In this document: positions 2,244 to 30,921 of the stretch, one piece after another
How positions within the stretch are numbered: the first letter of the stretch is position 1
Layout of the letters: each line of letters opens with the position of its first letter
Source: a virus
Strand: one strand, 5' to 3'
Length of the DNA stretch: 33,295 nt
Virus record (IMG/VR): IMGVR_UViG_3300042507_003088
Location: 1-33,295 of that record
Position numbers and translations under genes: made by a program
The notes under the pieces: model-generated
What the model was told of the DNA's origin: nothing
Seen by the model: only the letters and a program-made list of their open reading frames with translations
Database searches by the model: none

Positions 2244-3466
2244 TGTCTAATATTAGGCTATCTTTAGTATCTTTTACAAAAAATCCAGCTCTATTAAAGG
2301 TATACCAATCTTATATAGAAGCTGCGGATGAAACTTCTAGAGTTAGACTACAACAAAAGCTCGAAAGAGTTATTGGGGATAAACTATACGGCGCTAAAAA
2401 AGTTCCAGGTAATCCTAGATTAATACCTGATTGGTATATAGATCAAAGTGATGCTGCACTAGAGATTTCTAATAAGTTAGGAGTATTCGAAAGAGAAACA
2501 GATTCTGGCATATTAAGAATTGAAGCTAAACTGCAAAGAAAAGATATTAGCTCAAGAACAAAAACAACTATCGGCTCTGGAGTATTAGGAAATAGTATAA
2601 TAAATGAAATACTAGCTAATAAAGGCCAAATGCCTGTAGATAGAGTAGAACAAAAAATATTTAGACAGTTAAGACAGATAAAATCAGGTACTAACTTATT
2701 TAATTTCTTAGCAAAGAACGCACCTTCTAGTATTCATGAGCCTGCCTATCAAAAATCTAAAAACTTAACTATCCTATCTAAAACAGAGGGAAGTTTATTG
2801 GCTTATCAAATATATTTTCCTAGGTCTAAATTTAAAGCACCTATATTTGGCAGTTCTATAGGATCTGACGGTACTATAAGCTATTTTCTTCAAACCAGTT
2901 TCGAAAAGCAATTGTTAGGTGCGGCGTCTAGAGCAATGATGGCTGTAGATGCTGAAATTATGAGAGAGCAGCGTGAGCTAGTTAAAACTATTAAATCTAC
3001 TGATATAAGTTTTAGTAATCCTGTTAGGGGTAAGAAGGCAAAACCTAAAGAAACTATTGAGTTAATTTACTACTCAACAAATAGCATACCTATGTCTAGA
3101 GGTATACCTAAATCAACTACCAATCTTCGATTGCCCGCAGACATAGAAGAAAAAGATTTAAATGCGCCTAGAGATTCTACTATTGATATTACTTTAGCTG
3201 TAAAAAATAAAGTAAAGCAAAGAATGAGAAGAGGGGCTGGTAAGCCTAGACCAACTAAAATTTATGAACGTACAGGTGCTTTTAGAGGTAGTATACGTGC
3301 TTCATTTTCAGCTAAACAGCGTACTGTAGATTACTTTTATGAGCCTTATTATCAGCGACTAGAGCGTTCTGGTTATGAAATTACTAATTTAGTAGAAGAT
3401 TCTATCAGATCAGTAGTTCAAAACAAGTTTAAAGAACAAGTTACAACTAGAAGAATAAATCTTTAA
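2243..3466 (+). CDS. Probable neck / tail-completion protein (HK97 gp10-like C-terminus)
   Basis: A 407-residue protein coupled to the connector gene by a 1-nt TAATG overlap. The C-terminal 70 residues run RTGAFRGSIRASF, then YFYEPYYQRLERSG and a terminal helix (LVEDSIRSVVQNKF). This matches the general pattern of gp10/gpZ-type tail completion proteins (R-T-G-x-x-x-x-S followed by a Y-x-x-x-Y helix). The first 250 residues are basic and largely helical and are not recognised; there is no signal or membrane segment. The position between connector and tail terminator supports a neck role. The family usually has about 110-200 residues, so this one is enlarged. Confidence 0.55.
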   Translation: MSNIRLSLVSFTKNPALLKVYQSYIEAADETSRVRLQQKLERVIGDKLYGAKKVPGNPRLIPDWYIDQSDAALEISNKLGVFERETDSGILRIEAKLQRKDISSRTKTTIGSGVLGNSIINEILANKGQMPVDRVEQKIFRQLRQIKSGTNLFNFLAKNAPSSIHEPAYQKSKNLTILSKTEGSLLAYQIYFPRSKFKAPIFGSSIGSDGTISYFLQTSFEKQLLGAASRAMMAVDAEIMREQRELVKTIKSTDISFSNPVRGKKAKPKETIELIYYSTNSIPMSRGIPKSTTNLRLPADIEEKDLNAPRDSTIDITLAVKNKVKQRMRRGAGKPRPTKIYERTGAFRGSIRASFSAKQRTVDYFYEPYYQRLERSGYEITNLVEDSIRSVVQNKFKEQVTTRRINL

Positions 3467-3477
3467 AAAATTAAAAT

Positions 3478-3506
3478 TTGCCAATTATAGTTCTGCGTGC
3501 TATACT
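3478..3506 (+). promoter_or_regulatory. Extended -10 sigma-70 promoter before tail terminator gene
   Basis: TTGCCA at 3478-3483, a 17-nt spacer, then TATACT at 3501-3506 preceded by TGC (3498-3500), a TGN extended -10. Five of six bases match consensus in each hexamer. Transcription would start near 3513, only about 10 nt before the ATG at 3524. It lies in the only noncoding gap (57 nt) among the neck genes and would feed the tail terminator and tube genes. Confidence 0.7.
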
Positions 3507-3523
3507 TAAGAAAGAATAAAGAG

Positions 3524-3973
3524 ATGTCCAATCGTTCCGATATAAATGACTTCATCGTAAGTGAGTTACGAAATATAAACGGTAGAACATCACCGTATGA
3601 CTCTACTTACAATTTTAAGACGTCTCTACACGAAAATGTATACAGAGGAATTCGATTCTTAGATGAAATAAACGATTTCCCTTCTATATATGTAACAACA
3701 GGACGAGAAGTAAGAAAATTTAATACTCAAGGAAACATAGAAGCTAGAGTAGAAACTACATTACGCTGTTACTTGTATGGAGATGATACGGTTAATCAAA
3801 TTAACGATCTGATTCAAGACATAGAACACGTTATATATAATTTAAAGTTTCAACCAGCTCTACGAGTATTTGACGTTAGTATTATCACTGTATTAACAGA
3901 TTCCGGTTTATTAATACCATATGGAATGGCTGAGATATTTCTTAGTACTCGTTTTGAAATTTTTAAAATCTAA
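3524..3973 (+). CDS. Tail terminator protein (gpU-like), probable
   Basis: About 149 residues from the ATG at 3524. A GTG at 3497 in the same frame lies inside the promoter and is rejected. FPSIYVTTGRE, an R-x-E-x-T strand (RVETTLRCYLYG) and a following helix (INDLIQDIEHVIYN) give the compact alpha/beta pattern of siphophage tail terminators. These proteins form a hexameric ring that caps the tube and joins it to the neck. The position directly before the tail tube gene is the usual one. No near relative is recognised, so the call rests on pattern and synteny. Confidence 0.65.
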   Translation: MSNRSDINDFIVSELRNINGRTSPYDSTYNFKTSLHENVYRGIRFLDEINDFPSIYVTTGREVRKFNTQGNIEARVETTLRCYLYGDDTVNQINDLIQDIEHVIYNLKFQPALRVFDVSIITVLTDSGLLIPYGMAEIFLSTRFEIFKI

Positions 3974-3987: not shown

Positions 3988-5262
3988 ATGGCTTCATCAC
4001 TAAACCTTCAAAGAAACTCTGAAGTTTACATGTCTACCGTCGACCTAGCCGGTGGAGATGAGGGCGCAGATATGACCCCTCGCAATACTTGGAGAGTAGA
4101 AGTACTCGCCGGTTATGCAGCAAGTCAATCAGCGGCTACTCAAGATATTACATCACTAGAAAGTGGTCTAAGTCCTGACCGTGGTACACAAAGATTCAAC
4201 ACTGCAATTAATCCAACTGAATGGAGTTTCCAAACTTATCTACGCCCAACAGGCGTATTAAATACTTCTGGATCTACTAATGCAGATCCTACAGGAAACT
4301 CACAACCATTAGCTGACTGGTTCTTATGGCAAGCACTACTATCTAATACTGCATATTCTGCAGGAGTAGGTGCTTCTTCTAAACTACAATCTGCATGGCA
4401 AACTGGTGGAAAGTTCGGACTAGCAGCTCGTGCAGCTTCTGGAAACGCTGCAGCACATACTTCTAATATGGCTCGTGCTACTGAATACAACATGTACGTT
4501 AAAATGGACAACGTAGTATATCAAGTTAAAAATGCTACTGTTAATGAAGCTTCTATTGATGCGGCTATTGACTCTATTGCTATGACTAGTTGGAGCGGTT
4601 TTGGTACTGACTTTATTGAATTAACTAGTGCTGCACGTGATGAAATCATTTCTGTTGTTGGTGGAGTTCTTAACAATGGTACTTCTATTAGCGGAAACTC
4701 ACACTCAGATGCAAACACTGCGGCTCACGGTTATCACGCTTACGCTAGATATAACGTTGCAGGTACTACTACAACTAGCGCATTCATTCAAAATCGTCTA
4801 AGCTCTATCGAAGTAACTCATGAACCAGAAGGCGGTTCAGAATCTACTTACACATTCCCAGTTACTGGTTTAGGATTCACCTATTCTAACGCACTAACTT
4901 ATCTAACTCCAGAAGAACTAGCGGCTCTAAACTCTCCTATCAGTCAGTTTACAGGTTCTAGAACTATTACAGGTAACTTCACTGCTTACCTACGTTCTGG
5001 AACAGATGAAAGTGCTCAGTTCCTACGCAATATCTCTAACGATAGTAGAACCAGTATTGCACAAGCAAGCTCTGCTAACCTAAAGATTGGTGGTGCTACT
5101 GCTCCATTCGTTGCAACATACATGCCTGCTACCCAGTTCAACTTCCCAACACACACTGTTGAAGATATCATTGGTATTTCTGTAGAATTCTTAGCTCAAG
5201 AACCTACTGCTAGCCGTGGTACTGGTAGCGAACTAACATTGATTGTTTCTGCAGCATCTTAA
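3988..5262 (+). CDS. Major tail tube protein
   Basis: A 424-residue protein that should polymerise as stacked rings around the tape measure. It is rich in small and beta-forming residues (ASSLNLQRNSEVYMSTVDL at the start, ISVEFLAQEPTASRGTGSE near the end) and sits between tail terminator and tail chaperones, the standard place for the tube gene. It is longer than lambda gpV (about 246 residues), so extra surface domains are likely. A consensus AAGGAG lies 8 nt before the ATG. Codon use differs from the neighbours: more AAC, TAC and CGT/CGC and less AAT and AGA, as expected for the most abundant tail protein. Confidence 0.85.
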   Translation: MASSLNLQRNSEVYMSTVDLAGGDEGADMTPRNTWRVEVLAGYAASQSAATQDITSLESGLSPDRGTQRFNTAINPTEWSFQTYLRPTGVLNTSGSTNADPTGNSQPLADWFLWQALLSNTAYSAGVGASSKLQSAWQTGGKFGLAARAASGNAAAHTSNMARATEYNMYVKMDNVVYQVKNATVNEASIDAAIDSIAMTSWSGFGTDFIELTSAARDEIISVVGGVLNNGTSISGNSHSDANTAAHGYHAYARYNVAGTTTTSAFIQNRLSSIEVTHEPEGGSESTYTFPVTGLGFTYSNALTYLTPEELAALNSPISQFTGSRTITGNFTAYLRSGTDESAQFLRNISNDSRTSIAQASSANLKIGGATAPFVATYMPATQFNFPTHTVEDIIGISVEFLAQEPTASRGTGSELTLIVSAAS

Positions 5263-5407: not shown

Positions 5408-5839
5408 ATGAGTTTAATTAAAAATCTTATGGTAACAGAAAAGGTTACCGAAGTAGAGTTCCCAGATATTGAAGGATTTGTAGTTCACGTTAACTATGTA
5501 GGACGTGACAAAATGATGAAAATCCGTAATAGCGCTCTAGTGTACAAATTTAATAAGCGTACTCGTCAACGTGAAGAAGAAGTAGATAATGATAAGTTTC
5601 TAGAAGCTTATACTGAAGCTACTATCAAAGGCTGGAAAGGCTTAACTGTAAAAGGCTTAAGTCAACTAATTCCAGTAGACACTTCAAAAATGAATCCTAG
5701 TCAAGAAATTCCATACACACCTGAAGACGCACTTGATCTAGTTAAAAGCTCTACTATCTTTGATCAATTTATCACTGATACGCTAAATGACTTTGATAAC
5801 TTTGAACAAACAAGAAAAGAAACTGACGAAAAAAACTAA
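5408..5839 (+). CDS. Tail assembly chaperone, short form (lambda G-like)
   Basis: A 143-residue cytoplasmic assembly protein that would coat the tape measure during tail building; it is not expected in the virion. It begins MSLIKNLMVTEK, has a beta-rich first part and an acidic helical end. AGAGGA lies upstream of the ATG. Position (after tube, before tape measure) and the frameshift signal at its last codons are the strongest evidence. Ribosomes that do not shift stop at the TAA at 5837-5839; those that slip at 5830-5836 continue into the next frame and make a 266-residue GT-like fusion. Confidence 0.85.
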   Translation: MSLIKNLMVTEKVTEVEFPDIEGFVVHVNYVGRDKMMKIRNSALVYKFNKRTRQREEEVDNDKFLEAYTEATIKGWKGLTVKGLSQLIPVDTSKMNPSQEIPYTPEDALDLVKSSTIFDQFITDTLNDFDNFEQTRKETDEKN

Positions 5840-5875
5840 AAGACTTCCTCCGCAACCAACTTAATGGCGGAGGAA
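5830..5875 (+). promoter_or_regulatory. Programmed -1 ribosomal frameshift signal
   Basis: The slippery heptamer A AAA AAC lies at 5830-5836 in the correct frame (GAA AAA AAC, then TAA). After an 8-nt spacer comes a perfect 9-bp stem, TTCCTCCGC (5845-5853) with GCGGAGGAA (5867-5875), and a 13-nt loop. After a -1 slip the frame is open through CTA AAA GAC and runs without a stop into the ORF ending at 6207. This is the layout used by lambda-type phages to set the ratio of G to GT. A possible pseudoknot (loop CCAAC 5856-5860 with GTTGG 5915-5919) is only a suggestion. Confidence 0.92.
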
Positions 5876-6207
5876 TGAGTACAGAACAGTACTACGCTAT
5901 GTGTGAACAGATGGGTTGGGAACCAAGAGACGATGAAATACCAAAAGATATTGGTTCCCTACCTTTTAACAGCCAGTTAGCTGTTTTATTTTTAAATTTA
6001 CTTCCAGACCGTTGGGATACTACTGGCGGTGGTTGGTTGGGAAAAGACTTCGCCCCCTTAGAATCATTTATGAACATATACGAGGCTCAGGACAGAAAAG
6101 AAGTACTTGATTTATTGCTAGTAGCTCATGGTGTCTTATCTGAACACTATAATCAGCAAAAGAAAGCTAGAGATTCCGCTAGTAAGAATAAAGCAAGAGT
6201 GAGATAA
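5875..6207 (+). CDS. Tail assembly chaperone, T-like extension made by -1 frameshift
   Basis: The T part of a G-T fusion. The open frame is continuous from 5836, adding 13 linker residues (LKDFLRNQLNGGG) before the methionine at 5875 and then 110 residues; the whole fusion is 266 residues. MSTEQYYAMCEQMGW is typical of this second chaperone part, and its end is basic (KKARDSASKNKARVR). Independent initiation is unlikely: the GGAGG before the ATG at 5875 leaves only about 1 nt of spacing and is locked in the frameshift hairpin. In lambda the T part recruits tube protein to the coated tape measure; the same role is inferred here. Confidence 0.85.
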   Translation: MSTEQYYAMCEQMGWEPRDDEIPKDIGSLPFNSQLAVLFLNLLPDRWDTTGGGWLGKDFAPLESFMNIYEAQDRKEVLDLLLVAHGVLSEHYNQQKKARDSASKNKARVR

Positions 6208-6210: not shown

Positions 6211-9200
6211 TTGGCTACAATTAAGAATATAATTCAGACTCAATTTACTAGTACCGGAGCCGGTGGAGTAAACAAGCAAGTAGAAACTTTAAATAAAGGA
6301 CAAACCCGCCTAGCACAGAGTAGTGCTAGCGCGGGTCGTTCTTTTGCAGCTCAATCACAGGGATTAGGTGGTTTAGTAGCAGCCTATGCAGGCGCTGCTG
6401 CAACTACTTTTGCTTTACAACAAGCATTCTCTAAATTAGCTGGTGCTGCTCGTGCGGAACAAACTCTTGAAGGTCTTAAAAGTCTTGCTACTGCTAGTGG
6501 TGAGTCTAGTTCTATATTACTTAAAAATGTTCGTGAAATTACTAAAAATCAGCTTACATTGGCTGAAGCAGCTCAACAAATTAACCTTAGCTTAAGTGCT
6601 GGATTTGATCAAAAGCAAATTGAAGGACTAGCTAGCGTAGCCTTAAAAGCTTCTCGTGCTTTAGGTCGTGACTTAACAGATGCCTATACTCGTGTTATTC
6701 GTGGTTCTGCTAAACTAGAAACCGAACTTTTAGACGAACTTGGTATTTATACTAAGATTGGACCGTCTACTCGCGCTTATGCTGCTGCACTAAACAGATC
6801 AGCTGAATCCTTAACCGAATTTGAACGTCGCCAGGCTTTTGTTAACAGCGTTATAACAGAAGGCAATAAAAAGTTTGCTGCTATTAATACTACAATACCT
6901 ACTACTGCAGAAAAATTTGGAGCGTTTGGTACTAAAGTATTAGACTTAGCTACTAGTTTTGGTATATTACTAGCAAATAGTTTAGCTCCTTTAGCAGACT
7001 TTTTAACTAATAATTTTGCAGGTAGCTTAGCACTTGTAGCAGGTCTTTTAGCCTTAGTAGCTAAAACAGGATTAACACAATTAAGTGTAGGTATTAAGGC
7101 TTTTGAGAAACAAATAGTATCACTTAGTACTACAACTACTGCTTGGGTAACTAAAAATATTGGCGGATTTAAAGCTTATGGAGCAGCTGCACAGCAAGCT
7201 ATTCAAACCGTTAATACTCAGCTAAAAGGTTTAAGCAGAGCTGAGCAAGCTCAATTAGCTACCTTACGAGATACTTCTAAACAGCGAGCGCTAACTAGTG
7301 CCGAGCTTAAAACTGCTAATTTAATTTTAACTGAGCGTACAGCTGGGTTAAAGAAGCTAATAGCTACTCAAAATACCGAACTAGCTAATTTAGATAAGCA
7401 AATAGCTGGGCAGAAAAAAGGAAGCGCGGCCGCTAATGCCTTAACAACTAGTATAGCTGGATTAACCGCTAGGCTTGCTGCGAATAATGCGTTATTAAAA
7501 GCAACAGAAGCACAAACTATAGCTACTGCAGCTGCACAAGGTACTCTAGGAGCTAAATTAGGTACTGTAGCCTCAGGAGTTATAAATGGGTTAGGTATGG
7601 TAGCTTCTACTGCCTTAAGAGCAGGATCTGCTGTTATAGGATTTGCTACTGGAGCTTTGGGGGTAATAGCTGTTCTTTCTCTATTAGGCAGTACTATAGC
7701 GGGTCTTCTAGGTAAGCAAGAAGCATATAACCAACTGTTACAAAATGCAGGATTAGCTATCAAAGCATTTTTTACTGATGAAACAGCTGATAATATTAAA
7801 TCAGCTTTTACTTCTGTAGCTGCAGATGTTTTAGCAGATATGGAAAAAGTAGATAATAAACTAAGAGACTTAGAATCTTTTAAGATAAAAGATAAAATAT
7901 TTGGAGTTACTGTTGAGCTAGAAAAAACTAAAGAAGACTTAGTAAAAGGAGTAGGAGCAGCGGTTTCTGAAGCCAGTAGAGAAGGTGCTTCAGCAGGTGA
8001 AAGTTGGGGTGCTGCTATTTTAGGTAGTATAGGTGCAGTTTTAGGTGCGGGTCTAGGTTTATTATTAGGACCTTTAGGAGTTCCTGCAGGTTACGCTCTT
8101 GGTACGGCTATAGGCGCAGCTGCTGGAGTAGCTTTAGGTGTAGCTCTAGATCCTGCTACAAAGGAAGTAGCAGAACTTGCCGAAAGTAGATATGAAGAAT
8201 TAGGAAGAATGCTGGGTGACAAAGATATATTTAATTCTGCGGAATCTAATGAACTTTTAAGAAAAACTGTAGCGGTATTAGATGAACAATACGGTGCAAC
8301 TGCTAGATTATCTTTAGAAGGCCGTAAAATGTTTTCTACTATGTTAGAAATGGCTATTGCAACAACTAGTGTTTCTAATAATATGGAAATATTAGATGGA
8401 GTAGCTAAAAAAACTGGTATTTCTATAGTAGAATTAAAAGATAAATTTAATGATATAACTTTACCTTCAGGGGATGTAGAGCTTACTCCTAAACTAAATC
8501 TACCTGAGCAGTCTTTACCTTTAGTAATAAATATACAAAATGAAGAAGGTTTACTTGCTAGAATAGAAAAAATTAGGGAAGAGATTAGTAAAGTAACTAG
8601 AGTAGGTGCTAGAGGGGGAGTGCTTATAGAATTTGCAGTACCGCCCGAAGCCTTACCAACTCTGCAAGATATGACAGATAAGCTATTAGGTTTAGCTGAA
8701 TCTACAATAACTGTTAATAGTGATCTAGTGTTAGCTACTAATGTTATAGACAACTTTGCATCTGCAATAGATAACGGATCTCTAAACTTAGAAAGATTTT
8801 CTGAGAATGAATCTGCCATAACAAAAACTCTAATTAGAGCCTCAGTAGAATTAGGATCTGCTAAAACTAAATTAGACGAACTTAACGCTTCTAGAGCAGA
8901 AGCTCTTAGGTTAGGGGCTACTGAAAGTAATTTAGCAAGCATAGATGCTGAAATAGCTCGTCAACAAGCTTTAGTAAATGCCGGAGAAGATAGTGTTCAA
9001 GCAGCTAGACAAAGATTAAATATTCTTAGAGACATAGGCGCCCCATTAAAAGAGCAGCTAGAGCTAGAAACTAGAATTGCAGAACTATATGATGCAGAGC
9101 TAAAAACTAAGTTAAACTTATTAGCAGTAGACAAGGAAACTGGATCTATAGCAAAAACTTCTCAAGAAGAACAACTTTTTAGAGCACAAGAATTAGTGGG

Positions 9201-12200
9201 GCAAGCTAGAGCAGCATCAGCAGCCAGCAAAGAACGAGCTAGTTTTGAAGCTCAAGTAAGCAGAGCACTAGGAGCTGCAGGAAAATCTAATTTAGATTTA
9301 CAAACAGAAATTTTTGGATTAGTAGGAGAAGAGGGTCAAGCTAGATTAGCACAAATTGCTGCTGCTGAAGGATTGTCCGATACTTTAGGCTCTATAAAAA
9401 CCTTAACTTCCGAAACAGCACAAAGTGCGGATAGTTATCAGAATTTACTAAAAGTAGCTAAAGTTAATGCAGTTGAATTACTTAAAACTATATTTGCTAG
9501 TAACGTAGAATTAGCCAAACAAATAAAAGACGTAAATCAGCAACTTAATGATGCCGTAGCTGAAGACAGAATAGTAAAAATAAAACTAGAAGTAGAGTCT
9601 ATGAATTTAGACTACGAACTCGTTCAAGCTAATATAGATGCTCAAATTTCTGCGTTAGAATCTCAAGTTAGTATAGTAGAAGCATTAGCTAATTTAGATA
9701 ACTTTGCTACTGTAGACTCTATAGTTGCAGAAGTTAACGCGGCTTTAACTAATCTTAGCGTTAAAGTAGAAATACCAAAAGAATTACAAAATTTAAGTGC
9801 TGTTGAAGCAGCTAAAACTGTTACGGAAAAACAACTTCAAATATTAAACTTACAAATTGAAGCAGAAAAAGAACGCTATCAAAATGAAATATATAATATA
9901 GTAGCACAAAAATCTATACTATACGATCAAAAGAAGTTAGAAGATGCTAAAAGAGAAGCTGAAAAAGCTAATAGAATGGCCGAACTTGACTTACAGCGTA
10001 ATCAAATACAATCTTTAGCCGATTTATATATGCAAGCACTACAAAGCGAAAAAGACTTAAATCAATCTTTTGTTACCTCTTTAGCAGCTACCTTCACTGC
10101 AGGTGCCAATCAGCTAGCTGGTGTAATTGGTGCAGCCCCAGTAGCAGCGTTTGTTCCTCCACCAGTGGGGGCTAATATGGATATTGGTTCTAACTTTGCT
10201 GCAGTAAAACAAAGTTCTGATGAACTTTTTACTAGTTTAGAATCAGATCTTACTAGTTACTATAATACTCTGGACCAACTTGCTCAGCAAAACTACGAAA
10301 TGCAAAATAGTAATCTTACTAAACAACAAGAGATAGCTGAAGCAGGTCATAAAGCTAACGTTGAAGGTATTAAAGCTGGAGCTGTTGAAGCTGCTATTGC
10401 AGGTCGTCAGGCGTTAAAGGAACTTGCAGAAGCAGGTTCTAAAGAAGCGGCTGACCGTTTAAAAGCATTAGATGAGATGCAAAAGATTTTAAATGAAACT
10501 GGCGAAAAAGTAAAAGAGCTAGCAAAGCAGTTAGCAGAGCAAGTAATTGCAGCACTTCAAGAAGCGGTAACTGGCGTTATGCAGAAAAAGATCGATCTTC
10601 TAATAGCTCAAGAAGCTATGATTTCAGACACTCTTAGCTATGTAGCTAGTAGAACTGAAGAAGCTAGCACTAAGTTACAAGCAAGCTTAGAAAAAGAAAA
10701 TTCTCTTAGAGAAGAAGTTGCTTCTAAAACAGAAGCACTTAATCAGTCATATGTAGATTTTGTTACTTCTTTAGGGGAAGCAAACGGTAAAGTAAAAGAA
10801 TCTGGAAAAGAATATGTAGCTAAGCTTCTAGAGCAAAAACGCTCTATCATGGAACTTTATAAGACTGGTACTGCTCGTATTGCTCAAGAGGGTGTAGTTA
10901 AAACTCTTGAAGAAATGAAAATAGATTTAGAAAAGCGCTTAGAAGAAGTAACTTCTAAACGTATCAAAGCAGAAGAAAAGTTACAGAAAATACAAGAAGC
11001 ATTTGGACTACTAACTGACATGCTTAGTGGTAAGTTTATGCAAATGGCTAATACTGTTATGCAACTTTCTCAAGCTATATCAGCATTTAATGCTATGTCT
11101 GGCATGGGTGGCGGCATGGGTATGACTTTTCAACCTATTATAAATCAATTTGCGGACTCAGTTTCTCAATTTAATAAAGCCGCTCAAACTGCGGGAGCCG
11201 GCCTAACAGGAGCTGCTGGTGCTGGCGCAGGCGGTGCAGCTGCAGCAGGAGTAGGTGCAGCAACTTCTTTAATGCCTAAACTAGTAACTGGTATGAATTT
11301 ACTAAGTAGTGCTTTAAGCGGTTTTAGCATTGGTTCTATAGTAGGTCAACTAACTGGCGATACCGGTATGGGAAGTTCTATAGGCGGCTTAGTTGGTGGC
11401 ATTGCTGTTGCAATTCCAGCAGTAACTTCTGCTATAACTACAGGCATAACTGCAGCTCTAGGTTCAAGTGCAATAGGCTCTGCTCTTGGATCTGCGCTTT
11501 CTTTTGCTATTCCAGTTATTGGGCCTGTTTTTGGAGCACTACTAGGTGGATTATTTAGTAAAAAGCCTAAAGGTCAAGCGCAAGGCACTTTAACTTCAGA
11601 AGGTTTCACTACTACGAGCATGTCTGGAAGAAAAGTAGATCCTAAAGCTCTTGCTAGCATTGCAGACGTAGCCCTAACCAACGTTGTTGGATCTTTAGAA
11701 GCCGCTGGAATATCATTTACCGACACAGTTAACACTTCTATCAGCTTCTACAAAAAAGGAATCAACGGAGCTACTTTAGAGTTTGCTAACGGATTCAAAG
11801 CATCATTTAAGGGCGGATCGGCAGAAGCAGCTGGCAAATTCTTTGTAGATTCATTCTTTCAAGGATTAAGAGCTGGCAGCCTAAACGTAGACGAGGCATT
11901 ACCAGCAGCTGGCAGAATTCAATCAGCTATAGACAACTTTGTAGCTTTAAGTGACGTTTCTGAAAAAACTAGTGAGCGTTTTTCAAAGGCTATAGACTTT
12001 GCTTCTAAGTTTGATGAAGCTTTAGTATCTCTTAGTGGAACAGGTTCTACTATAACTCAAGTGTTTAGTGTTATTGAAAAAGCAGCCGTAGCTAATGCAG
12101 CTAATGTAAATAGATACTATCAAGAGTTCTTAGCTGATACTAAAGAAACTTTTGGAGCTTCTAGTTCTGAGTATAGAGAAGCATATGCAGCGGCTGTAGA

Positions 12201-15200
12201 TAATGCTTTAGGTCAAATAGGCTTAGCTAAAGACTTAGGTGGCAATATCATAACAGCCGCAGAAGCTATGAACGATTTAAATGCTGGTTCTATAATGGTC
12301 AAAGAAACTATTGCAGGAATTCAAGCATTTAGTAGTGTGCTAGAAGGTCTAGAAGTTCCTGATGTAGATTCTGTAATAACTCAAGCTATTAATGCCAAGC
12401 TTAGTGCTTTAGTTACTGATGTTGGCGATTCTCTAACTGAAAGTATTGAACTATTAAGAGATCCAGCTTCTGCAGCAGCTTTTCAGCTTAGAGATATTAT
12501 GCAATCTGGTGCTGATAGAGTAACAGAACTCACTGGAGTTTACGATCAACTTAGAACAGAAATAGCTGGAGGAGCTAGCATTGATGCAAGTATTGTTAGT
12601 GATGCTGCAGCCAACATTGCTAAAGCTACCGAACTAGCTGCTCTTCAAGTTGATGCTTATATAAACAGCCTAGATAAATCAGGGCTACGTGCTATTATAT
12701 CTAACCAAGCTTGGGGTGATGCAGCTGCTATGGCTGCTGCTGAAACTCGTTTAGCTATTGTATTAGAATACGAACGTGTTCAAGCTATTGAAAAGTTTGT
12801 AGACGTAAGTAAAAACTTTAAAAAGCGTTTAGCAGAAATTACTGGTCAAGTACAAAAAGTATCTGAGACTCCTATATCTTATACGGCTACAACCTCAGTT
12901 ATGAAAGCTTTTGAACAAGAAGTAAGCACTACCTTAACTAATAGCTTCACTAGCTTGTTAAACTCTATAGGTCGTGGCGCTAACATTACTGGAAACTTTG
13001 AAACAGCTATAGCCGAGCTTAATGCTGGACTAGCTTCTGGAGAGTTAGATAGTTTAGCTTATGCTAACGGTCTTGAAATGTTAAGTGATGTTACTGCTAG
13101 CGTATTAGAAGAAATTAATGCAATGGTAGAAGAAGCAGAATCTTTAGTTTCTCAAATAGCTCAAAGTTTTGATACTTCAAAAGATACTGTTATATCTGCT
13201 ATTCAAGAGCTAGGTAATCAGCTTGTAACTTTAACTCAAAATATTACCGATAAAACTTCTGAAATTTTAGGTATTTATGATGATACTCTAAGTTCAGTAG
13301 CCGAGTCTGGTAACGAACTATTTGATTTACGTGATACAGCTAAAGAAGCATTTTCAACTGCTGCAAAAGCTGTTGCAGAGTTCGAAAAGAGTAATAAGCT
13401 AAGCGGTAAGTCTTCTGCTGTGTTACGTGGTGAAATTCTAAATGTACAATCTCAGTTAAGCAACCTACTAGCTGCAGGAAATCTAGATTTTAGTGGATTT
13501 GCTCAATTTACAGAGCTTAGTGCTCGTCAAGGAGCACTAAAGCGTGAATTAAATGCTGTAGTAGCTGTTGAAAGTGAATATCAAGATTTACTAGATAAGC
13601 GTGGAACAACTCAAGAAGATTTAATATTTATTGAAGCTACTATTGCATCTCTTAATGAAGATTTAATTGATACTAGAATAAAAGAATCTGAGTTAATCGT
13701 AAAAGCTAAAGACGCTACTGTAAAATTTGTAAACTCACAAGAAGATTTAAAAGATATTACTGAGCTACTAGCAGCTTCTAATTTTAACTTAAATCAAGTT
13801 AGAGTTAATGAAGAGTCTGCTGTAAATAGAATGAGAACAGCTCTACAAGAGTTTACAACAGACACAGCTTCTCTAACTGAGCTATTAGACGGACTTGGCG
13901 GGGCTTCTGGTGCTGCACTAAGAGAATCTTTTATACAGGCTGCTACTGGTAATGCTGAAATTATGTTTGCTAATCTAGGCGATATAGCTAGAAGTGCTGA
14001 AATAAATGCAGCCGTAGCACAAGCTACTACAGCTTTTGATAGTTTAGAACAACTAGTTACTGAAGTTAGTTCTTATTTTAATCCAGTTGCTACAGAGTTT
14101 GAAGCTGTAAGTACTAGCACTGTTGAGTTAACAGACAGATTTGCAGCTTTTAACGAAGATCTAGTTAGATACTTAGACCAAGAAGGTTTAGCTAAGTTTT
14201 ATGGAGACGGCGGAGTATTCTCCAGCTTTAGAGATTCACTGCTAACTACTCTAAAAACTGATGGATTTGATATATTAACTGCTTCTGGTGGGCCCTTAGA
14301 AAGCTTTAATCTAAACTTAAATACTATTGGACAAGCAATGGCTACACTTACAGCTTCTGGTAACTTCCTAGATGTAAGTATTCAAACAGTTGAAACTTCT
14401 TTTGGTAACTTAGTAACAGCAATGGGTACTGATATGGCTGGCTTATCAGCTGCTTATGTAGGCTTATCTGTATTCAGTGCTTCTGCACAGCAAGTAGGCG
14501 ATATTGATTTAACTGCAATGGTAGATAATCTTGGAGAAATTAAATTAGCTTTAGACGGCTTAGGTAACTTAAGACTTAGTGTTGACGCTTTTGACTCTCT
14601 AAGCTCTATATATACTTCTATTACAGTTGTAGATTCGCTATTAAATAGTATTTCTTTTGATGTATCAGCTGGAAATGCTACAACAGCTATTTCTACTGCA
14701 GTTAGCGTAATTGATAGTACTCTTAATGCTATAACTTTAGGTCCTGTTACTGACGCTACTGTAGATAAAATTGAAGTAGCCTTTACCGCTATAAACTCTA
14801 CACTAGGTAGTGTAGATTTAGTAACTGTTACTGATTCTACTGTAGATAAAATTGATGTAACATTTTCAGCAATCAATAGCGCTCTATCTAACGTAAACCT
14901 AGTTACAACAAGAGACAGCAGTGTAGATCAAATTAACGCTGTTAATACAAATATAAACTCTTCTTTAAATGGTGTTAACTTTGTTACTAATAGAGACAGT
15001 AGCGTAAACCAAATTAATCTTGTAAATAACAATATTAATTCTTCTTTAAATGGCGTTAACTTTGTTGCTAACAGAGATAGCAGTGTAGATCAAATTAACG
15101 CTGTTAATACAAATATAAACTCTTCACTAAGCGGAGTTAACTTTGTTGCTAATAGAGATAGTAGTGTAGCGCAGATTAACGCGGTTAATACTAATATTAA

Positions 15201-18048
15201 TTCTGCACTTACTGGCGTAAACTTTATTGATAGTGCTAATAGTGCTGTAAATCAAATAAGCTTAGTAAATAATAACTTAAACTCTATTTTAGAATCTATA
15301 AACTTTGTTGTAAACAGTGATAGCGTAATAGGGCAAATTAGTGTTCTAAGCACTAACATAAATTCTGCCTTGAATAACGTTAACTTTGTTACATCTAGAG
15401 ATAGCAGTGTTGCCCAAATTAATACAGTTAATACTAACGTAAACTCTGCTTTAAGCGGAGTGAACTTTGTTACTAACAGAAATAGTAGTGTTGCTCAAAT
15501 TAACTCAGTTACTACTAGCTTAAACTCAGCACTAAACGGAGTTAACTTTGTTGTGACCACTAACTCTGTAGTAGATAAGATTACAGCTTATAACGTTGCA
15601 GTTAACTCTGCACTATCTAACGTTGATTTAGTATCTAATACTGATTCTCTGGTTAACAGAATTGGCACAGTTAGTGTATTAGTAAATACTGCACTTTCAA
15701 ATGTAGACTTTGAAGATACTACTGCTGACGTAGTGCAAATGATTACTGAGTACAATACTGATATAAATAAAGTATTAGGTTCTTTAGAGTTGTCTGTTGC
15801 TACTGAAACTCTAGTAGACTCGCTAAGCACTTTAAAAGATCTGGAAGGAGCAGTTAACTCTATAGATTTTTCTACGTCTATTGAAGATGTTACTGCTTCT
15901 TTAACTTCTGTTAACTCTGTTGTTAATCAGTATCTAGATGCTATAGATGTAACAGCCCGTTTAAAAGAAGCTACAGATCAAATAGGTTTAGTAAATACTA
16001 ATATAAATCTTAGACTAGATGAAGTAGATTTTACTACGCGCTTAAGAGAAGCTACAGATCAAGTAAGTGCATTAAATACTAATATTAATACTAAATTAGG
16101 TACTGTAGCTTTTGCAACAAACCTAACTACAGTTACTAATGCTATAGGTTCTGTAGCAACTTCTATTAACACAGCATTAAGCAACTCTACTATAAGCTCT
16201 ATGCAAAATACTTTTACTGCATTAGTTAATGTGTTTAACACTGATGCTAAAAATGGGGTTGATGCCTTTAAAGCTTCTATCGACAAATTTGTAAATTTAA
16301 CTACACAAATTAATTCTGTGGCAGGGCTTGCACAAGAGATAAATGATCTAAGTGCTTCTAATGGTGATATTTCTAGATTAATTACTAGATTTAATGAGTT
16401 ACAAACTCAGATAACTGCATTAACTGGTACTACGGGTATAGCGTCAGTTAAGGCTCAGTTAGCTACTATAGCTACGGATTTAGGTGCAGCATGGAACAAC
16501 ATAAATCTGCAAGTAAGTCAGTTACCTACTAAAATTACTGTAGCTAATACTGTTAATACTACAGTACAAGGTGGTTTTTCTAATACCGATAGTACTAACC
16601 TAGCAAAATTAACTAATACATTTCCAGCTATACAAGGGGCAACATATAAAAAAGCAACCTATGCTAAGGGGGGTTACGTTGGGGGCCCTGGAACTGGTAC
16701 TAGTGATTCTATCCCTGCTCGTCTTTCTAATGGTGAGTACGTAATAAAAGCGCAGGCAGTTAAAACCATTGGTAAGGATGCTTTAGATTACCTAAATGCT
16801 ACCGGGGATGTTCAGTCATATATAGCTGGTATGGGTAGACGTGGCGATACCGAGCTTGCTCATATTACCAGATACGAAAAAGAACTATTATCTAGCATAA
16901 GAAATGGTATAAAAACTACTAATCCAGATACTAATATTCAAGAGTTCTTCCCTCTTTGGAGCGGTGCTGTTGGCAAAATGTTTGCTAAGCAAGAAAAAGA
17001 TCTACTAGCGAAAACATATCTTTCTAAAATATTAGCGCGTAATGAAAACATATACAATTATAATTATAAAAAGCAGCAAAACGCAAGACCAGAAAAACGA
17101 ACACTAGAGGCAAGCTCTACTGGTACACCGTGGACAAATCCTAAATTTAGTAATCTAGCACTCGACGGTAAAAGTCAGGGCACAGGTAACTATGTAGATC
17201 GAGTAGCGGAAAATGGTCTATTTACTCCTACCTACACTAACGACCAAATCACTTCTCAGAGGGCCGTTTTTAATATGTTAAATGAAATGCTTGTTGCCAG
17301 AAAACCTGGAACAGCCCTAACTAAACTTGATTGGGTATATGCACCTAATAAAGCAGATGGAACACATAAATGGGGAAATTTTGGATTTAATAAATCTACT
17401 TCTAATACAAGTGAAGCCCAAACAGGTTGGGGTCCTTTTAAATTTAAGAGAAATCCATTTGATGATACTGATACCTATGGTCCATTTGGTCCTTCTCCTA
17501 CTAATACTGATGGCGGTGGATGGATGCATAAATCTGGCGTAGCACTTACACAGCATATGAAAGATCAATTTGGAAAAAATATTAGTACTGGTTTGAATCC
17601 TCTAAATAGATCTTATATGGATCAAGCTATTGATGCCGCTAACGAAGACTACGGTAACTTTGGCGATCTATACATGTTAAGCAACACAGGAAAAGGCAGA
17701 CCTACTGCAGCTAACTTAGCTAGCGGTGGTTTAATAGATAGCTCTTATAAACAATTCAAAGGGCTAAGAGACTCCGTCTCTGCCATGTTAGAGCCAGGTG
17801 AGTTTGTACTTCGCAAACCTATCGTAGATAAGCTTGGCGTAGACACTCTTAACAAAGTTAATGCTGGTAGTGGTGATTTTGGTGGTGATGTAAGTGTAGA
17901 AGTTAATATTAACAACAATGGAACTCCGGCTAACGTAACTGCAACTCCAGAAATCAGACGTGAAAACGGAAAGATTATTGTAGATGTTATACTAGAAGAT
18001 ATTAGAACAAATGGACCTATCCGTCAACAAATTAGGAGCTTAAGATAA
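6211..18048 (+). CDS. Tail tape measure protein, very long (3945 residues)
   Basis: This protein sets tail length and is ejected with the DNA; here it takes over a third of the window. The start is a TTG 3 nt after the chaperone stop with only a weak Shine-Dalgarno; no ATG follows for hundreds of codons. Residues 1-260 resemble the alanine-rich helical start of other tape measures. Hydrophobic stretches lie at about 465-500, 600-650 and 1690-1780. Long charged helices fill about 880-1000 and 1230-1640, and a tandem 27-residue repeat runs from about 2765 to 3330. Near the end, GGYVGGPGTGTSDSIPARLS with NGEYVI (from about 3486) is a widespread tape measure motif. A second, diverged copy with MLEPGEFVLRKP lies near 3837-3871, with about 300 unrecognised residues between. 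Confidence 0.93.
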   Translation: MATIKNIIQTQFTSTGAGGVNKQVETLNKGQTRLAQSSASAGRSFAAQSQGLGGLVAAYAGAAATTFALQQAFSKLAGAARAEQTLEGLKSLATASGESSSILLKNVREITKNQLTLAEAAQQINLSLSAGFDQKQIEGLASVALKASRALGRDLTDAYTRVIRGSAKLETELLDELGIYTKIGPSTRAYAAALNRSAESLTEFERRQAFVNSVITEGNKKFAAINTTIPTTAEKFGAFGTKVLDLATSFGILLANSLAPLADFLTNNFAGSLALVAGLLALVAKTGLTQLSVGIKAFEKQIVSLSTTTTAWVTKNIGGFKAYGAAAQQAIQTVNTQLKGLSRAEQAQLATLRDTSKQRALTSAELKTANLILTERTAGLKKLIATQNTELANLDKQIAGQKKGSAAANALTTSIAGLTARLAANNALLKATEAQTIATAAAQGTLGAKLGTVASGVINGLGMVASTALRAGSAVIGFATGALGVIAVLSLLGSTIAGLLGKQEAYNQLLQNAGLAIKAFFTDETADNIKSAFTSVAADVLADMEKVDNKLRDLESFKIKDKIFGVTVELEKTKEDLVKGVGAAVSEASREGASAGESWGAAILGSIGAVLGAGLGLLLGPLGVPAGYALGTAIGAAAGVALGVALDPATKEVAELAESRYEELGRMLGDKDIFNSAESNELLRKTVAVLDEQYGATARLSLEGRKMFSTMLEMAIATTSVSNNMEILDGVAKKTGISIVELKDKFNDITLPSGDVELTPKLNLPEQSLPLVINIQNEEGLLARIEKIREEISKVTRVGARGGVLIEFAVPPEALPTLQDMTDKLLGLAESTITVNSDLVLATNVIDNFASAIDNGSLNLERFSENESAITKTLIRASVELGSAKTKLDELNASRAEALRLGATESNLASIDAEIARQQALVNAGEDSVQAARQRLNILRDIGAPLKEQLELETRIAELYDAELKTKLNLLAVDKETGSIAKTSQEEQLFRAQELVGQARAASAASKERASFEAQVSRALGAAGKSNLDLQTEIFGLVGEEGQARLAQIAAAEGLSDTLGSIKTLTSETAQSADSYQNLLKVAKVNAVELLKTIFASNVELAKQIKDVNQQLNDAVAEDRIVKIKLEVESMNLDYELVQANIDAQISALESQVSIVEALANLDNFATVDSIVAEVNAALTNLSVKVEIPKELQNLSAVEAAKTVTEKQLQILNLQIEAEKERYQNEIYNIVAQKSILYDQKKLEDAKREAEKANRMAELDLQRNQIQSLADLYMQALQSEKDLNQSFVTSLAATFTAGANQLAGVIGAAPVAAFVPPPVGANMDIGSNFAAVKQSSDELFTSLESDLTSYYNTLDQLAQQNYEMQNSNLTKQQEIAEAGHKANVEGIKAGAVEAAIAGRQALKELAEAGSKEAADRLKALDEMQKILNETGEKVKELAKQLAEQVIAALQEAVTGVMQKKIDLLIAQEAMISDTLSYVASRTEEASTKLQASLEKENSLREEVASKTEALNQSYVDFVTSLGEANGKVKESGKEYVAKLLEQKRSIMELYKTGTARIAQEGVVKTLEEMKIDLEKRLEEVTSKRIKAEEKLQKIQEAFGLLTDMLSGKFMQMANTVMQLSQAISAFNAMSGMGGGMGMTFQPIINQFADSVSQFNKAAQTAGAGLTGAAGAGAGGAAAAGVGAATSLMPKLVTGMNLLSSALSGFSIGSIVGQLTGDTGMGSSIGGLVGGIAVAIPAVTSAITTGITAALGSSAIGSALGSALSFAIPVIGPVFGALLGGLFSKKPKGQAQGTLTSEGFTTTSMSGRKVDPKALASIADVALTNVVGSLEAAGISFTDTVNTSISFYKKGINGATLEFANGFKASFKGGSAEAAGKFFVDSFFQGLRAGSLNVDEALPAAGRIQSAIDNFVALSDVSEKTSERFSKAIDFASKFDEALVSLSGTGSTITQVFSVIEKAAVANAANVNRYYQEFLADTKETFGASSSEYREAYAAAVDNALGQIGLAKDLGGNIITAAEAMNDLNAGSIMVKETIAGIQAFSSVLEGLEVPDVDSVITQAINAKLSALVTDVGDSLTESIELLRDPASAAAFQLRDIMQSGADRVTELTGVYDQLRTEIAGGASIDASIVSDAAANIAKATELAALQVDAYINSLDKSGLRAIISNQAWGDAAAMAAAETRLAIVLEYERVQAIEKFVDVSKNFKKRLAEITGQVQKVSETPISYTATTSVMKAFEQEVSTTLTNSFTSLLNSIGRGANITGNFETAIAELNAGLASGELDSLAYANGLEMLSDVTASVLEEINAMVEEAESLVSQIAQSFDTSKDTVISAIQELGNQLVTLTQNITDKTSEILGIYDDTLSSVAESGNELFDLRDTAKEAFSTAAKAVAEFEKSNKLSGKSSAVLRGEILNVQSQLSNLLAAGNLDFSGFAQFTELSARQGALKRELNAVVAVESEYQDLLDKRGTTQEDLIFIEATIASLNEDLIDTRIKESELIVKAKDATVKFVNSQEDLKDITELLAASNFNLNQVRVNEESAVNRMRTALQEFTTDTASLTELLDGLGGASGAALRESFIQAATGNAEIMFANLGDIARSAEINAAVAQATTAFDSLEQLVTEVSSYFNPVATEFEAVSTSTVELTDRFAAFNEDLVRYLDQEGLAKFYGDGGVFSSFRDSLLTTLKTDGFDILTASGGPLESFNLNLNTIGQAMATLTASGNFLDVSIQTVETSFGNLVTAMGTDMAGLSAAYVGLSVFSASAQQVGDIDLTAMVDNLGEIKLALDGLGNLRLSVDAFDSLSSIYTSITVVDSLLNSISFDVSAGNATTAISTAVSVIDSTLNAITLGPVTDATVDKIEVAFTAINSTLGSVDLVTVTDSTVDKIDVTFSAINSALSNVNLVTTRDSSVDQINAVNTNINSSLNGVNFVTNRDSSVNQINLVNNNINSSLNGVNFVANRDSSVDQINAVNTNINSSLSGVNFVANRDSSVAQINAVNTNINSALTGVNFIDSANSAVNQISLVNNNLNSILESINFVVNSDSVIGQISVLSTNINSALNNVNFVTSRDSSVAQINTVNTNVNSALSGVNFVTNRNSSVAQINSVTTSLNSALNGVNFVVTTNSVVDKITAYNVAVNSALSNVDLVSNTDSLVNRIGTVSVLVNTALSNVDFEDTTADVVQMITEYNTDINKVLGSLELSVATETLVDSLSTLKDLEGAVNSIDFSTSIEDVTASLTSVNSVVNQYLDAIDVTARLKEATDQIGLVNTNINLRLDEVDFTTRLREATDQVSALNTNINTKLGTVAFATNLTTVTNAIGSVATSINTALSNSTISSMQNTFTALVNVFNTDAKNGVDAFKASIDKFVNLTTQINSVAGLAQEINDLSASNGDISRLITRFNELQTQITALTGTTGIASVKAQLATIATDLGAAWNNINLQVSQLPTKITVANTVNTTVQGGFSNTDSTNLAKLTNTFPAIQGATYKKATYAKGGYVGGPGTGTSDSIPARLSNGEYVIKAQAVKTIGKDALDYLNATGDVQSYIAGMGRRGDTELAHITRYEKELLSSIRNGIKTTNPDTNIQEFFPLWSGAVGKMFAKQEKDLLAKTYLSKILARNENIYNYNYKKQQNARPEKRTLEASSTGTPWTNPKFSNLALDGKSQGTGNYVDRVAENGLFTPTYTNDQITSQRAVFNMLNEMLVARKPGTALTKLDWVYAPNKADGTHKWGNFGFNKSTSNTSEAQTGWGPFKFKRNPFDDTDTYGPFGPSPTNTDGGGWMHKSGVALTQHMKDQFGKNISTGLNPLNRSYMDQAIDAANEDYGNFGDLYMLSNTGKGRPTAANLASGGLIDSSYKQFKGLRDSVSAMLEPGEFVLRKPIVDKLGVDTLNKVNAGSGDFGGDVSVEVNINNNGTPANVTATPEIRRENGKIIVDVILEDIRTNGPIRQQIRSLR
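14506..16200 (+). repeat. Tandem 81-nt (27-residue) repeats inside tape measure gene
   Basis: About 20 consecutive units of 27 codons. The consensus is close to RDSSVxQINxVNTNINSxL followed by xGVNFVxN. The best-conserved copies start at 14911, 14992, 15073 and 15154, exactly 81 nt apart; flanking copies are more diverged and at least one single-codon slip occurs near the end. Hydrophobic residues fall every 3-4 positions (V, I, V, I, L, V), so each unit is probably amphipathic helix. Boundaries at both ends are approximate. Confidence 0.85.
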
Positions 18049-28174: not shown

Positions 28175-28528
28175 TTAAAACTGTTCTCGCTCAGAGAAGA
28201 ACCAACACTTATAATAGTTTTCTAGTTCACCATAACTACCAAAATAAGCTGCTCCTCTAAAAATAGCTGGGGATTTTTTAGTATTATACTGAACAATAAG
28301 TCTACGCTGCCACTCTGGATTCATTAGAACATGCTTAAAGTTTTCTTTATGTTCTTTAAATAGGCTTACAGCTTTTTCTGTCCAAGGACAACCTTCGATA
28401 CCGATAATTGTCCACAACGCATCATCATCTACGTTACGCAATCTTTCTTCTTTTATTTCTTGTTTTACTACAGGTTTAGCTGCTACAGTAGTTGTAGCGG
28501 CTTTTGTATTTGCATTAGTTGTCATCAT
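28175..28528 (-). CDS. Glutaredoxin-fold protein with monothiol-like CPWT site
   Basis: 117 residues. After a variable Thr/Ala/Lys-rich N-terminus of about 35 residues comes a glutaredoxin-like domain: strand LWTIIGIEG, active-site CPWT (47-50), the cis-Pro loop KSPAIF (85-90) and the final helix after GSYGELENYY. The second cysteine of the usual CPYC pair is Thr, so it would act by a monothiol mechanism or only bind. It overlaps the thyX 3' end by 14 nt with AAGGAA upstream of its ATG. A redox partner role for the reductase or ThyX is possible but not shown. Confidence 0.72.
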   Translation of the reverse strand: MMTTNANTKAATTTVAAKPVVKQEIKEERLRNVDDDALWTIIGIEGCPWTEKAVSLFKEHKENFKHVLMNPEWQRRLIVQYNTKKSPAIFRGAAYFGSYGELENYYKCWFFSEREQF

Positions 28529-29225
28529 TTCTTTCCTTTTTAGTATAATTATCTAGTAGTGGAAATATTTTTGAAATAGCTTTTCCAATTTCTTTAGCTA
28601 CTAACATATGTTCTTTTTGAGTGCCGTTTGCTGAACGAAGTTCAACGTAGTGAATCCAAGAGCGAATAGTGCCTTGCATGTATAAGCGTGATACAGTATT
28701 TCCTTCTGGAAGAACGCTTCTAGCTTGTTCTTTAGCAATACCAATTTCTTTACTTATAGCCCATTCATAAGCTTCTTTAGCGGCTTTAATTACAGTTTCT
28801 TGTTTTAGTCGCCACTCACGATCTATATTTCTATGATACTCTCGAGTTAGGTCTAGCTCAACTGAGTCTTGACGATTAGTTGGGTGCTGAAGACGGGCTT
28901 CTCTAATAACAAAAGATTCTCCTAACGCATCAATTTCTTTGTACCGCTGAGAAAACTCTTGAAAAGAAAATGAGCGATGTCGAAGCATTTGACGTGCGAT
29001 ATCACGAGTAGTTTCAATTTCTATAGTTGCTGACGCCATTTCAAAAGGCGACCAGTGTTGATGATTACTCAAATAGTTAAGCAGTCGTTCTGTGGTTTCA
29101 AAATTAGCTTGGAATTGTGGGTTAGATACTTTTGCACAATATGCAATTAGATCTTGAACACCTTCTAACCCTTCAATGCCTAGATCTTCAACAGGTTGGC
29201 TATACGCAAACAGTTTAACTTTCAT
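28515..29225 (-). CDS. thyX: Flavin-dependent thymidylate synthase
   Basis: 236 residues. It converts dUMP to dTMP with methylenetetrahydrofolate, FAD and NADPH (EC 2.1.1.148). The ThyX signature RHR-x3-S-x4-SxR pattern is seen as RHRSFSFQEFSQR (82-94). Downstream EQARSVLPEGNTV and the final helical part with W-I-x-Y-x-E-L-R-x-x-x-x-x-Q complete the fold. Length is normal. It follows the exonuclease gene by 1 nt with AAAGG 6 nt before the ATG, and with the reductase it lets the phage make its own dTTP. Confidence 0.96.
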   Translation of the reverse strand: MKVKLFAYSQPVEDLGIEGLEGVQDLIAYCAKVSNPQFQANFETTERLLNYLSNHQHWSPFEMASATIEIETTRDIARQMLRHRSFSFQEFSQRYKEIDALGESFVIREARLQHPTNRQDSVELDLTREYHRNIDREWRLKQETVIKAAKEAYEWAISKEIGIAKEQARSVLPEGNTVSRLYMQGTIRSWIHYVELRSANGTQKEHMLVAKEIGKAISKIFPLLDNYTKKERNDDN

Positions 29226-29226
29226 T

Positions 29227-30084
29227 TTATACCTTTAGAGACTTACTTAACATATCGATTACTAAATCTTGTTTTTCTACTGAAGTTAAAACATCGTCTA
29301 TATAATCTAACAGATTAATAAGTTTTTCATTTCTAGTTAGTACATCAATACTTTTATTTAGATTTTGAATATATTTAGCTTTACCAGTAATCGGTAAACT
29401 ATTAATCAAGTTATCGAGTGTTTTATATTCTTTTACCAATGCAATACTACGCTTAGGACCAATGCCTTCAACTCCGCTAATATTATCACCAGAGTCTCCT
29501 TCAATCATTCTGGCGAAGGCATACTCTTTAGGAGTTAGATCGAAGTTCTCTGTTAAATAGTTTAAATCAACTTCTTTTCTAGAATACATATTGAAGATGC
29601 TTACATCTTCTTTTAGGAGCTGATACAAGTCTCTATCGCTTGATACAATCCAAGTATGGTTATATTTGCTACTAAGATGTTTAGAAAAGTATGCAATTAT
29701 GTCGTCAGCTTCAATGCCTTTGAACTTAAAGTGTTCAAAAGGTAATGCGTCAATAGTATCTGACAAACAGTTAAAGAACTCAGTAAAGCGTTCTTGCTCT
29801 TCTTCAGTACGTTCAACTTTTCTATTAGCTTTGTATTCTGGGAACATATTTTTTCTATATGCAGAAGCGCCAGAGTCAAAACAGCAAATAATGCGTTTTG
29901 CTTCATAGCTTTTTCCCAGACTAGTAACTGTTCTAATATAATCTTCAGTAAAGTTATTATAATTTTTACGTTGTAAATATCTAAAAGCTAGATTTACTCC
30001 GTCAATAAGCAATAGATTGTTTGCATTTTCTACTGCTTTTTTAGCTTGCGTTAATTCTGCAAGATCATCCCAATTTGTTACCAC
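29227..30084 (-). CDS. 5'-3' exonuclease / flap endonuclease (FEN, T5 D15-like)
   Basis: 285 residues. It removes 5' flaps and RNA primers during replication. All metal-binding motifs are visible: Asp28 (LLIDGVN), Asp70 (CCFDSGASAYRK) with basic residues up to KANRK, E125-x-D-D128 (GIEADDI), D150-x-D152 (SSDRDLYQ) and EGDSGDN (195-201), followed by the DNA-binding turn GVEGIGPK (204-211). The start is a GTG with AGAGGA 6 nt upstream. It is one gene away from the resolvase-like gene and heads the exonuclease-thyX-glutaredoxin group. Confidence 0.93.
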   Translation of the reverse strand: MVTNWDDLAELTQAKKAVENANNLLLIDGVNLAFRYLQRKNYNNFTEDYIRTVTSLGKSYEAKRIICCFDSGASAYRKNMFPEYKANRKVERTEEEQERFTEFFNCLSDTIDALPFEHFKFKGIEADDIIAYFSKHLSSKYNHTWIVSSDRDLYQLLKEDVSIFNMYSRKEVDLNYLTENFDLTPKEYAFARMIEGDSGDNISGVEGIGPKRSIALVKEYKTLDNLINSLPITGKAKYIQNLNKSIDVLTRNEKLINLLDYIDDVLTSVEKQDLVIDMLSKSLKV

Positions 30085-30115
30085 GATATTCCTCTTATAT
30101 TAATTATCATATGTA

Positions 30116-30144
30116 ATATTACCATATAAACTAGCTACCTGCAA
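30116..30144 (-). promoter_or_regulatory. Possible promoter for exonuclease-thyX unit
   Basis: Read on the minus strand, TTGCAG (30144-30139), a 17-nt spacer and TAATAT (30121-30116) preceded by TGG, a TGN extended -10. The hexamers match consensus only moderately. It lies in the 66-nt gap before the exonuclease GTG. Confidence 0.45.
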
Positions 30145-30150
30145 GAATAA

Positions 30151-30603
30151 TTATGAATCAACTTTAACCTTTAATTGAGCTTTAGGTAACCAGTGTTCAA
30201 GTAAACCCATTTTAAACTCGCAGTCTGCACTCTTAATAACTACATAATTTTGTATATTTATATCTTCATCTATCCAACATACATAATTTTTGCTTCTATC
30301 CCACCTATAAATTAGTAGTGGTAGCTTCTTCATTACTGCAGCTTCTCTAGTAGTTTGTCTCCAAAAGTCTAACAGTAGCGCACTTTTAGCTGTTAGCACA
30401 TTATTCCAAGGAACTTCTTTGTGGTGTTTTGCTTCAATGCACCAAGGAAAATCAGGTTTCCAAGGAGCATAAACATCTCCCTTTAAATAAGAAAGAGCGC
30501 CCGATAAAGGCACTCTTTCAAATTGTGTTTTAAAAGTATCCGTAAATATGTCTCTTACAACATATTCATAACTCCTACCTTTTGTCTTACTTAAATTTGT
30601 CAT
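30151..30603 (-). CDS. PD-(D/E)XK nuclease, Holliday-junction-resolvase-like
   Basis: 150 residues. The nuclease core is seen as a helix with KGRSYE (Glu13), then GALSYLKGDVYAP (Asp43) and WCIEAKHH (Glu58-x-Lys60), giving the E, D and E-x-K pattern of Hjc-like and other PD-(D/E)XK enzymes. A later strand LLIYRWDRSKN fits the fold. Phages often place such a resolvase with replication genes to clear branched DNA before packaging; other endonuclease roles are possible. AAGGAG precedes the ATG by 6 nt and a promoter lies upstream. Confidence 0.75.
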   Translation of the reverse strand: MTNLSKTKGRSYEYVVRDIFTDTFKTQFERVPLSGALSYLKGDVYAPWKPDFPWCIEAKHHKEVPWNNVLTAKSALLLDFWRQTTREAAVMKKLPLLIYRWDRSKNYVCWIDEDINIQNYVVIKSADCEFKMGLLEHWLPKAQLKVKVDS

Positions 30604-30621
30604 AAATTACTCCTTGCATAA

Positions 30622-30650
30622 AACATAGCAATTTATAACCTAACAGTCAA
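30622..30650 (-). promoter_or_regulatory. Extended -10 promoter for resolvase-like gene
   Basis: On the minus strand TTGACT (30650-30645), a 17-nt spacer and TATGTT (30627-30622) preceded by TGC. The -35 is identical to that of the plus-strand promoter at 27561. It starts transcription shortly before the resolvase-like gene and may also drive the exonuclease group. Confidence 0.7.
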
Positions 30651-30659
30651 AAAAGTTTT

Positions 30660-30887: not shown

Positions 30888-30921
30888 AATTTCTCCTAAA
30901 ACAGTAAAGACCGTTTATCTA

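Follow-up and report, generated by a model that had tools for sequence, protein, structure and literature searches.

A tandem 27-residue array as a probable expandable length-setting module in the tape measure protein of a T5-like siphophage

Tape measure proteins (TMPs) form extended helical rods. Each residue deleted from a TMP shortens the tail by 0.145–0.15 nm, and removal of the TMP repeats of TP901-1 also led to a shorter tail (PMC5099701). About 5% of annotated TMPs carry tandem 11-residue repeats with Trp/Phe markers, which undergo duplications and losses (Belcaid 2011, PMC3271669). We analyzed a 33.3-kb IMG/VR virus fragment (hereafter, the window), in which a TMP gene contains a tandem array of a different period, 27 residues. 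Does this array set tail length, and does it do so in whole units?

The tape measure gene and its repeat array

Gene order and family matches indicated that the window carries siphophage tail genes. They are arranged as tail terminator, tube protein, tail chaperone, TMP, and distal tail genes. The features used below are as follows.

3988–5262, plus strand: tail tube protein, T5 pb6 homologue (phmmer against T5 pb6 chains, E 1e-27; phrog_3575)
5408–6207, plus strand: two small genes between the tube protein and TMP genes, the first matching tail assembly chaperones (phrog_313, E 1.9e-13; gene order)
6211–18048, plus strand: TMP gene, 3945 aa, TTG start (phrog_3779 tape measure, E 1.2e-30)
14560–16206, plus strand: array of about 20 tandem 27-residue (81-nt) units (lag-27 segment analysis with shuffled null, unit print-out, and repeat search)
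14749–14910, plus strand: two "TD(S/A)TVDKI" units, a sub-block defined by unit-by-unit comparison
14911–14991, plus strand: core unit A
14917–14963, plus strand: 47-nt identical stretch, copy 1
15073–15153, plus strand: core unit C
15079–15125, plus strand: 47-nt identical stretch, copy 2
15802–15882, plus strand: unit with the only one-codon slip inside the array

The N-terminus of the TMP matched structures of the T5 TMP pb2 (E 1.5e-22), and its C-terminus matched many TMP families. Together with the phrog_3779 match, these results supported the identification of the protein as a tape measure in an earlier note on this DNA. The gene is also flanked by tail chaperone and distal tail genes, as expected for a T5-type siphophage TMP. 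Its N-terminal region and the tube protein are homologous to pb2 and pb6, and a trimeric TMP is expected; in the tip, the TMPs of T5 and lambda are trimeric. A difference is that pb2 has about 1220 residues, whereas the TMP of the window has 3945 and contains the array.

Three other observations concern the gene neighborhood. The neck protein at 978–2243 has head–tail connector and head-completion matches, one at each end, and a LamG/concanavalin-like lectin domain (PF13385, E 1.7e-15) is inserted in its middle, an unusual location for a sugar-binding domain. A 283-codon open frame runs antisense to the TMP gene (8091–8942, minus strand) and is probably a by-product of codon usage. The region adjoining the tail module (28515–33045) encodes ThyX, a class II ribonucleotide reductase, and a 5'-3' exonuclease, functions of nucleotide metabolism and repair.

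The earlier note placed about 20 tandem units at 14506–16200. In the lag-27 analysis, the maximum-scoring segment covered frame residues 2785–3324 (nt 14560–16179; 20.0 units) with a score of 827, whereas the maximum of 200 block shuffles that kept local composition was 39. The array was therefore found where it had been placed, except that the first 81 nt (14506–14586, DLTAMVDNLG...) contained no clear unit. Tandem Repeats Finder reported period 81 (7.9 copies, 14911–15553) and also period 162. When the frame was printed in 27-residue steps, the register was kept from the unit at 14587 through 16206 with a single one-codon slip near 15802–15880; the proposed exact 81-nt register over the best copies held apart from this slip. 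A one-codon slip is present at nearly the same place in the relatives L006, L007, L008, and L143. The consensus of the core units is close to RDSSVxQINxVNTNINSALxGVNFVTN. The TMP outside the array had lags of 11, 14, 18, 21, and 25, and 27-residue periodicity was absent from array-free TMP segments, which sets the array apart as a segment of its own kind.

The array had no credible sequence match in Pfam, PHROG, or PDB, and the few matches obtained resembled chance coiled-coil or low-complexity matches. Searches of cultured phages found no phage with the same array, and searches of bacterial genome contigs found no relative. The match to Rhodococcus phage GuyFagieri extended no further than the C-terminal region of the common GGYV motif.

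Like the published 11 or 11-11-18 TMP repeats (PMC3271669; TP901-1, Mahony 2016, PMC5099701), the array is tandem, variable in number, and gapless in register, with duplications and losses. It differs from them in its period of 27 in the lag scan. It also lacks Trp and any fixed aromatic marker: neither Trp nor Phe predominates at any position, and position 24 was Leu in 50, Phe in 46, and Ile in 21 of 133 units. In a search of mostly open-access literature, neither a 27-residue TMP repeat nor a unit-per-ring match was found. Duplication and loss have been described for TMP repeats of 11 and 18 residues; the 27-residue period appears to be new.

Turnover of units among relatives

Relatives were gathered by IMG/VR searches with several TMP segments. 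Homologous arrays were present at the same site, and the lag-27 segment analysis gave 10.3 (L108), 10.8 (L114), 11.1 (L104), 17.6 (L009–L012), 20.0 (window), 21.0 (L006), 22.1 (L008), 22.4 (L007), and 41.9 (L143) units, plus 32.0 in L032, whose 5' end is missing. More distant TMPs, among them L013, L014, L089, and L120, had no array. Unit number thus varied from about 10 to 42 within the clade and did so by whole units, as in the 11/18-residue W/F repeats. Two sister pairs were the most informative. The window and L006 were 96% identical in a conserved region, and their arrays differed by exactly one unit; the TDSTV sub-block had two units in the window and three in L006. L007 and L008 were 88% identical, and their arrays also differed by one unit in this sub-block. 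These results indicated that units were gained or lost on at least two separate occasions.

The outer units of the window and L006 were clear orthologues. The inner units resembled other units of their own phage, and dS between them and their positional partners was 1.45, against a flank dS of 0.32. Between units, dS ranged from 0.36 up to saturation. Neither a fixed copy number nor equal synonymous divergence was observed, and the earlier proposals that whole units are gained and lost and that units differ in age both agreed with the sequences.

A recent copying event was localized in the core of the array, in four units starting at 14911 (A), 14992 (B), 15073 (C), and 15154 (D). The earlier note had ascribed the likeness of A and C to a recent duplication of a 162-nt block of two units. 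The 47-nt identity on which it relied was confirmed (14917–14963 = 15079–15125). A and C were 91% identical in nucleotides, whereas A–B and B–C were 81% and 77% identical, so that A and C are indeed closer to each other than either is to the middle unit. For B–D, the identity was 72%. The dS was 0.36 for A–C and 1.74 for B–D, the raw differences were 7 and 23, respectively (Fisher p=0.002), and at lag 162 the high identity spanned only about 100 nt. A block duplication predicts the same age for A–C and B–D. Their divergence differs, and the 162-nt duplication was rejected for this quartet as unsupported; copying of a single unit, or gene conversion, accounts better for the data. As the A–C dS is similar to the flank dS between the window and L006, the copying event dates roughly to the split of these two phages.

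Block events do occur in the group. In the L009 array, neighboring units were up to 99% identical (lag 81), and identity at lag 243 reached 98%, a three-unit block pattern. No copy-number variation was seen within the L009-group species, the array being identical in five contigs.

Between some lineages unit identity was below 25%, yet off-register steps were rare, and dN was well below dS between orthologous units. These results suggested constraint on both the units and their spacing. In L032, frame residues about 430–620 run in 26-residue steps within an otherwise 27-residue array. This run is a natural test of whether 27 residues are strictly required.

Fold of the unit

To describe the unit, 151 units from eight arrays were pooled into a residue profile. 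Large hydrophobic residues made up at least 90% at positions 8, 15, 19, 22, and 24, 77% at position 5, and about 50% at positions 11 and 12. The hydrophobic moment of positions 3–22 peaked at 100–105 degrees in all eight arrays and not at 170 degrees. For the pooled units, it was 0.208 at 100 degrees and 0.043 at 170 degrees; the alternating in/out hydrophobic pattern of a β-solenoid was not present. A peak at 100–105 degrees in every lineage is a helix signature, and a unit probably consists of a single amphipathic helix (about residues 3–22) and a short break. This helix-plus-break unit with hydrophobic positions 22 and 24 is a further difference from the 11-residue repeats.

The a/d heptad positions are 5, 8, 12, 15, 19, and 22, and the next a falls at 32 = 26+6. 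The unit can thus be written as 27 = 3x7+6, that is, three heptads plus a 6-residue insertion. In trimeric coiled coils, inserting 6 residues creates a β-layer (PMC4786415). The array unit resembles such α/β coiled coils, whose heptads carry 2- or 6-residue insertions, in its arithmetic. The residue preferences fit only partly. The expected layer positions 26 and 27 are mostly small or polar, the hydrophobic positions being 24 and 25, and the published register leaves the strongly hydrophobic position 24 unexplained; the homotrimer is putative.

Array length, tape measure length, and tube rings

In the seven complete array-bearing TMPs, array length correlated with total TMP length (r=0.996, slope 1.27); over the only four independent lineages behind this correlation, r was 0.998. 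These TMPs had 3588–4685 residues, and their remainders without the array had 3297–3551. The TMP of L143 was predicted to be long from its 42-unit array while its gene was only partly visible, and the full length, 4685 residues and the longest of the set, later bore this out. In the array-free relatives L089, L120, L013, and L014, TMP length ran from 3039 to 3960 residues; the TMPs of even more distant relatives were shorter. As array-free TMPs also vary in length, the array is not the sole source of length change. Among them, L013 (3550 residues) and L014 (3960 residues) are 410 residues apart. The length of L014 had suggested a constant total TMP length, the array making up for losses elsewhere, an idea rejected because lengths ranged from about 3040 to 4685 residues.

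The unit was then compared with the tail tube. Tail tubes rise 38–43 Å per ring; the values are 40.6 Å for T5 (PMC9022992) and 40.25 Å for P74-26 (PMC10034513). As a helix, one unit would measure 27 x 1.5 Å = 40.5 Å, close to the T5 value, and at 0.145–0.15 nm per residue it would correspond to 3.9–4.05 nm of tail. The 27-residue period matches the ring rise, whereas the 11-residue period does not. As the tube of this phage is pb6-like, one unit per ring is a natural reading. It is plausible, and a numerical coincidence until tails are measured.

We consider it probable that the array is an expandable length-setting module within the TMP of a T5-like siphophage. Homologous recombination or slippage between similar units may add, remove, and overwrite copies. 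In the tube lumen, the unit helices would form an extended rod, probably a trimer; with such a rod, each extra unit would lengthen the tail by about 4 nm, close to one T5-type ring. Varying by whole copies that are each about one ring long, the array looks like a ruler evolving ring by ring. A TMP of 3945 residues would imply a tail near 590 nm, and we counted this predicted length against the ruler model.

Three other explanations were weighed against the length-setting module. The array might be a neutral by-product: recombination makes and removes copies, tail length tolerates this, and the number 27 is inherited from the founding unit with no match to the ring. Duplication automatically keeps its own period, the rest of the TMP varies as well, the L032 array partly lacks the 27-residue step, and array-free relatives function at a similar TMP length, as L014 does. 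The rarity of off-register steps among units less than 25% identical argues against this explanation, as does the low dN of orthologous units, although the constraint on units and spacing could simply be coiled-coil packing. We regard this explanation as unlikely. The array might also lie outside the measuring part, in a cleaved C-terminal piece that sits in the tip or is ejected and that tunes reach or channel formation. T5 provides a precedent: cleavage of its TMP downstream of the hydrophobic stretch yields a C-terminal piece that is at first located in the tip and later leaves it (PMC10038345). The array is indeed located about 1000 residues past the last long hydrophobic segment, and the hydrophobic segments, read by eye from the translation, follow an order unlike that of T5. 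The roughly 2100 residues after the hydrophobic segment are too many for a tip, however, and the array has the regular helical rod pattern of other TMP lumen segments, making a location outside the measuring part improbable.

Least probable, by a further step, is that the array folds as a β-solenoid or another compact repeat, in which case a unit would add about 0.5 nm instead of 4 nm. AlphaFold 2 (AF2) modeled the near-identical units of the window array as a β-solenoid (pLDDT 63, pTM 0.62), in conflict with the helix model, and Asn, Ser, and Val are abundant in the units. False β-solenoids are a known error of AF2 on near-perfect repeats (PMC11795689), and the solenoid model of the window array is likely such an artefact. 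For the diverged L114 array, AF2 predicted helices separated by short breaks, one for every 27 residues, and no strands, at low confidence (pLDDT 43). The helical and not alternating placement of hydrophobic residues in every lineage, together with the extended helical form of TMPs, also argues against a solenoid.

Within the length-setting module, a stricter reading is that each unit is a literal tick mark, its 27 residues (three heptads plus the break) spanning exactly one T5-type ring. This is possible, but we hold it only tentatively. If it were true, the array would keep the tape in register with the rings, tail length would evolve in single-ring steps, and the tube would select for the strict 27-residue spacing, which would not be merely inherited. 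It would also bear on how a TMP is seated in the tube and whether it contacts the rings in register, its density being blurred in the tail maps of T5 and P74-26. More generally, the array suggests how tail length could evolve in whole steps, and relatives with about 10 to 42 ring-length units, including two pairs one unit apart, would allow ring-by-ring tests of tail length.
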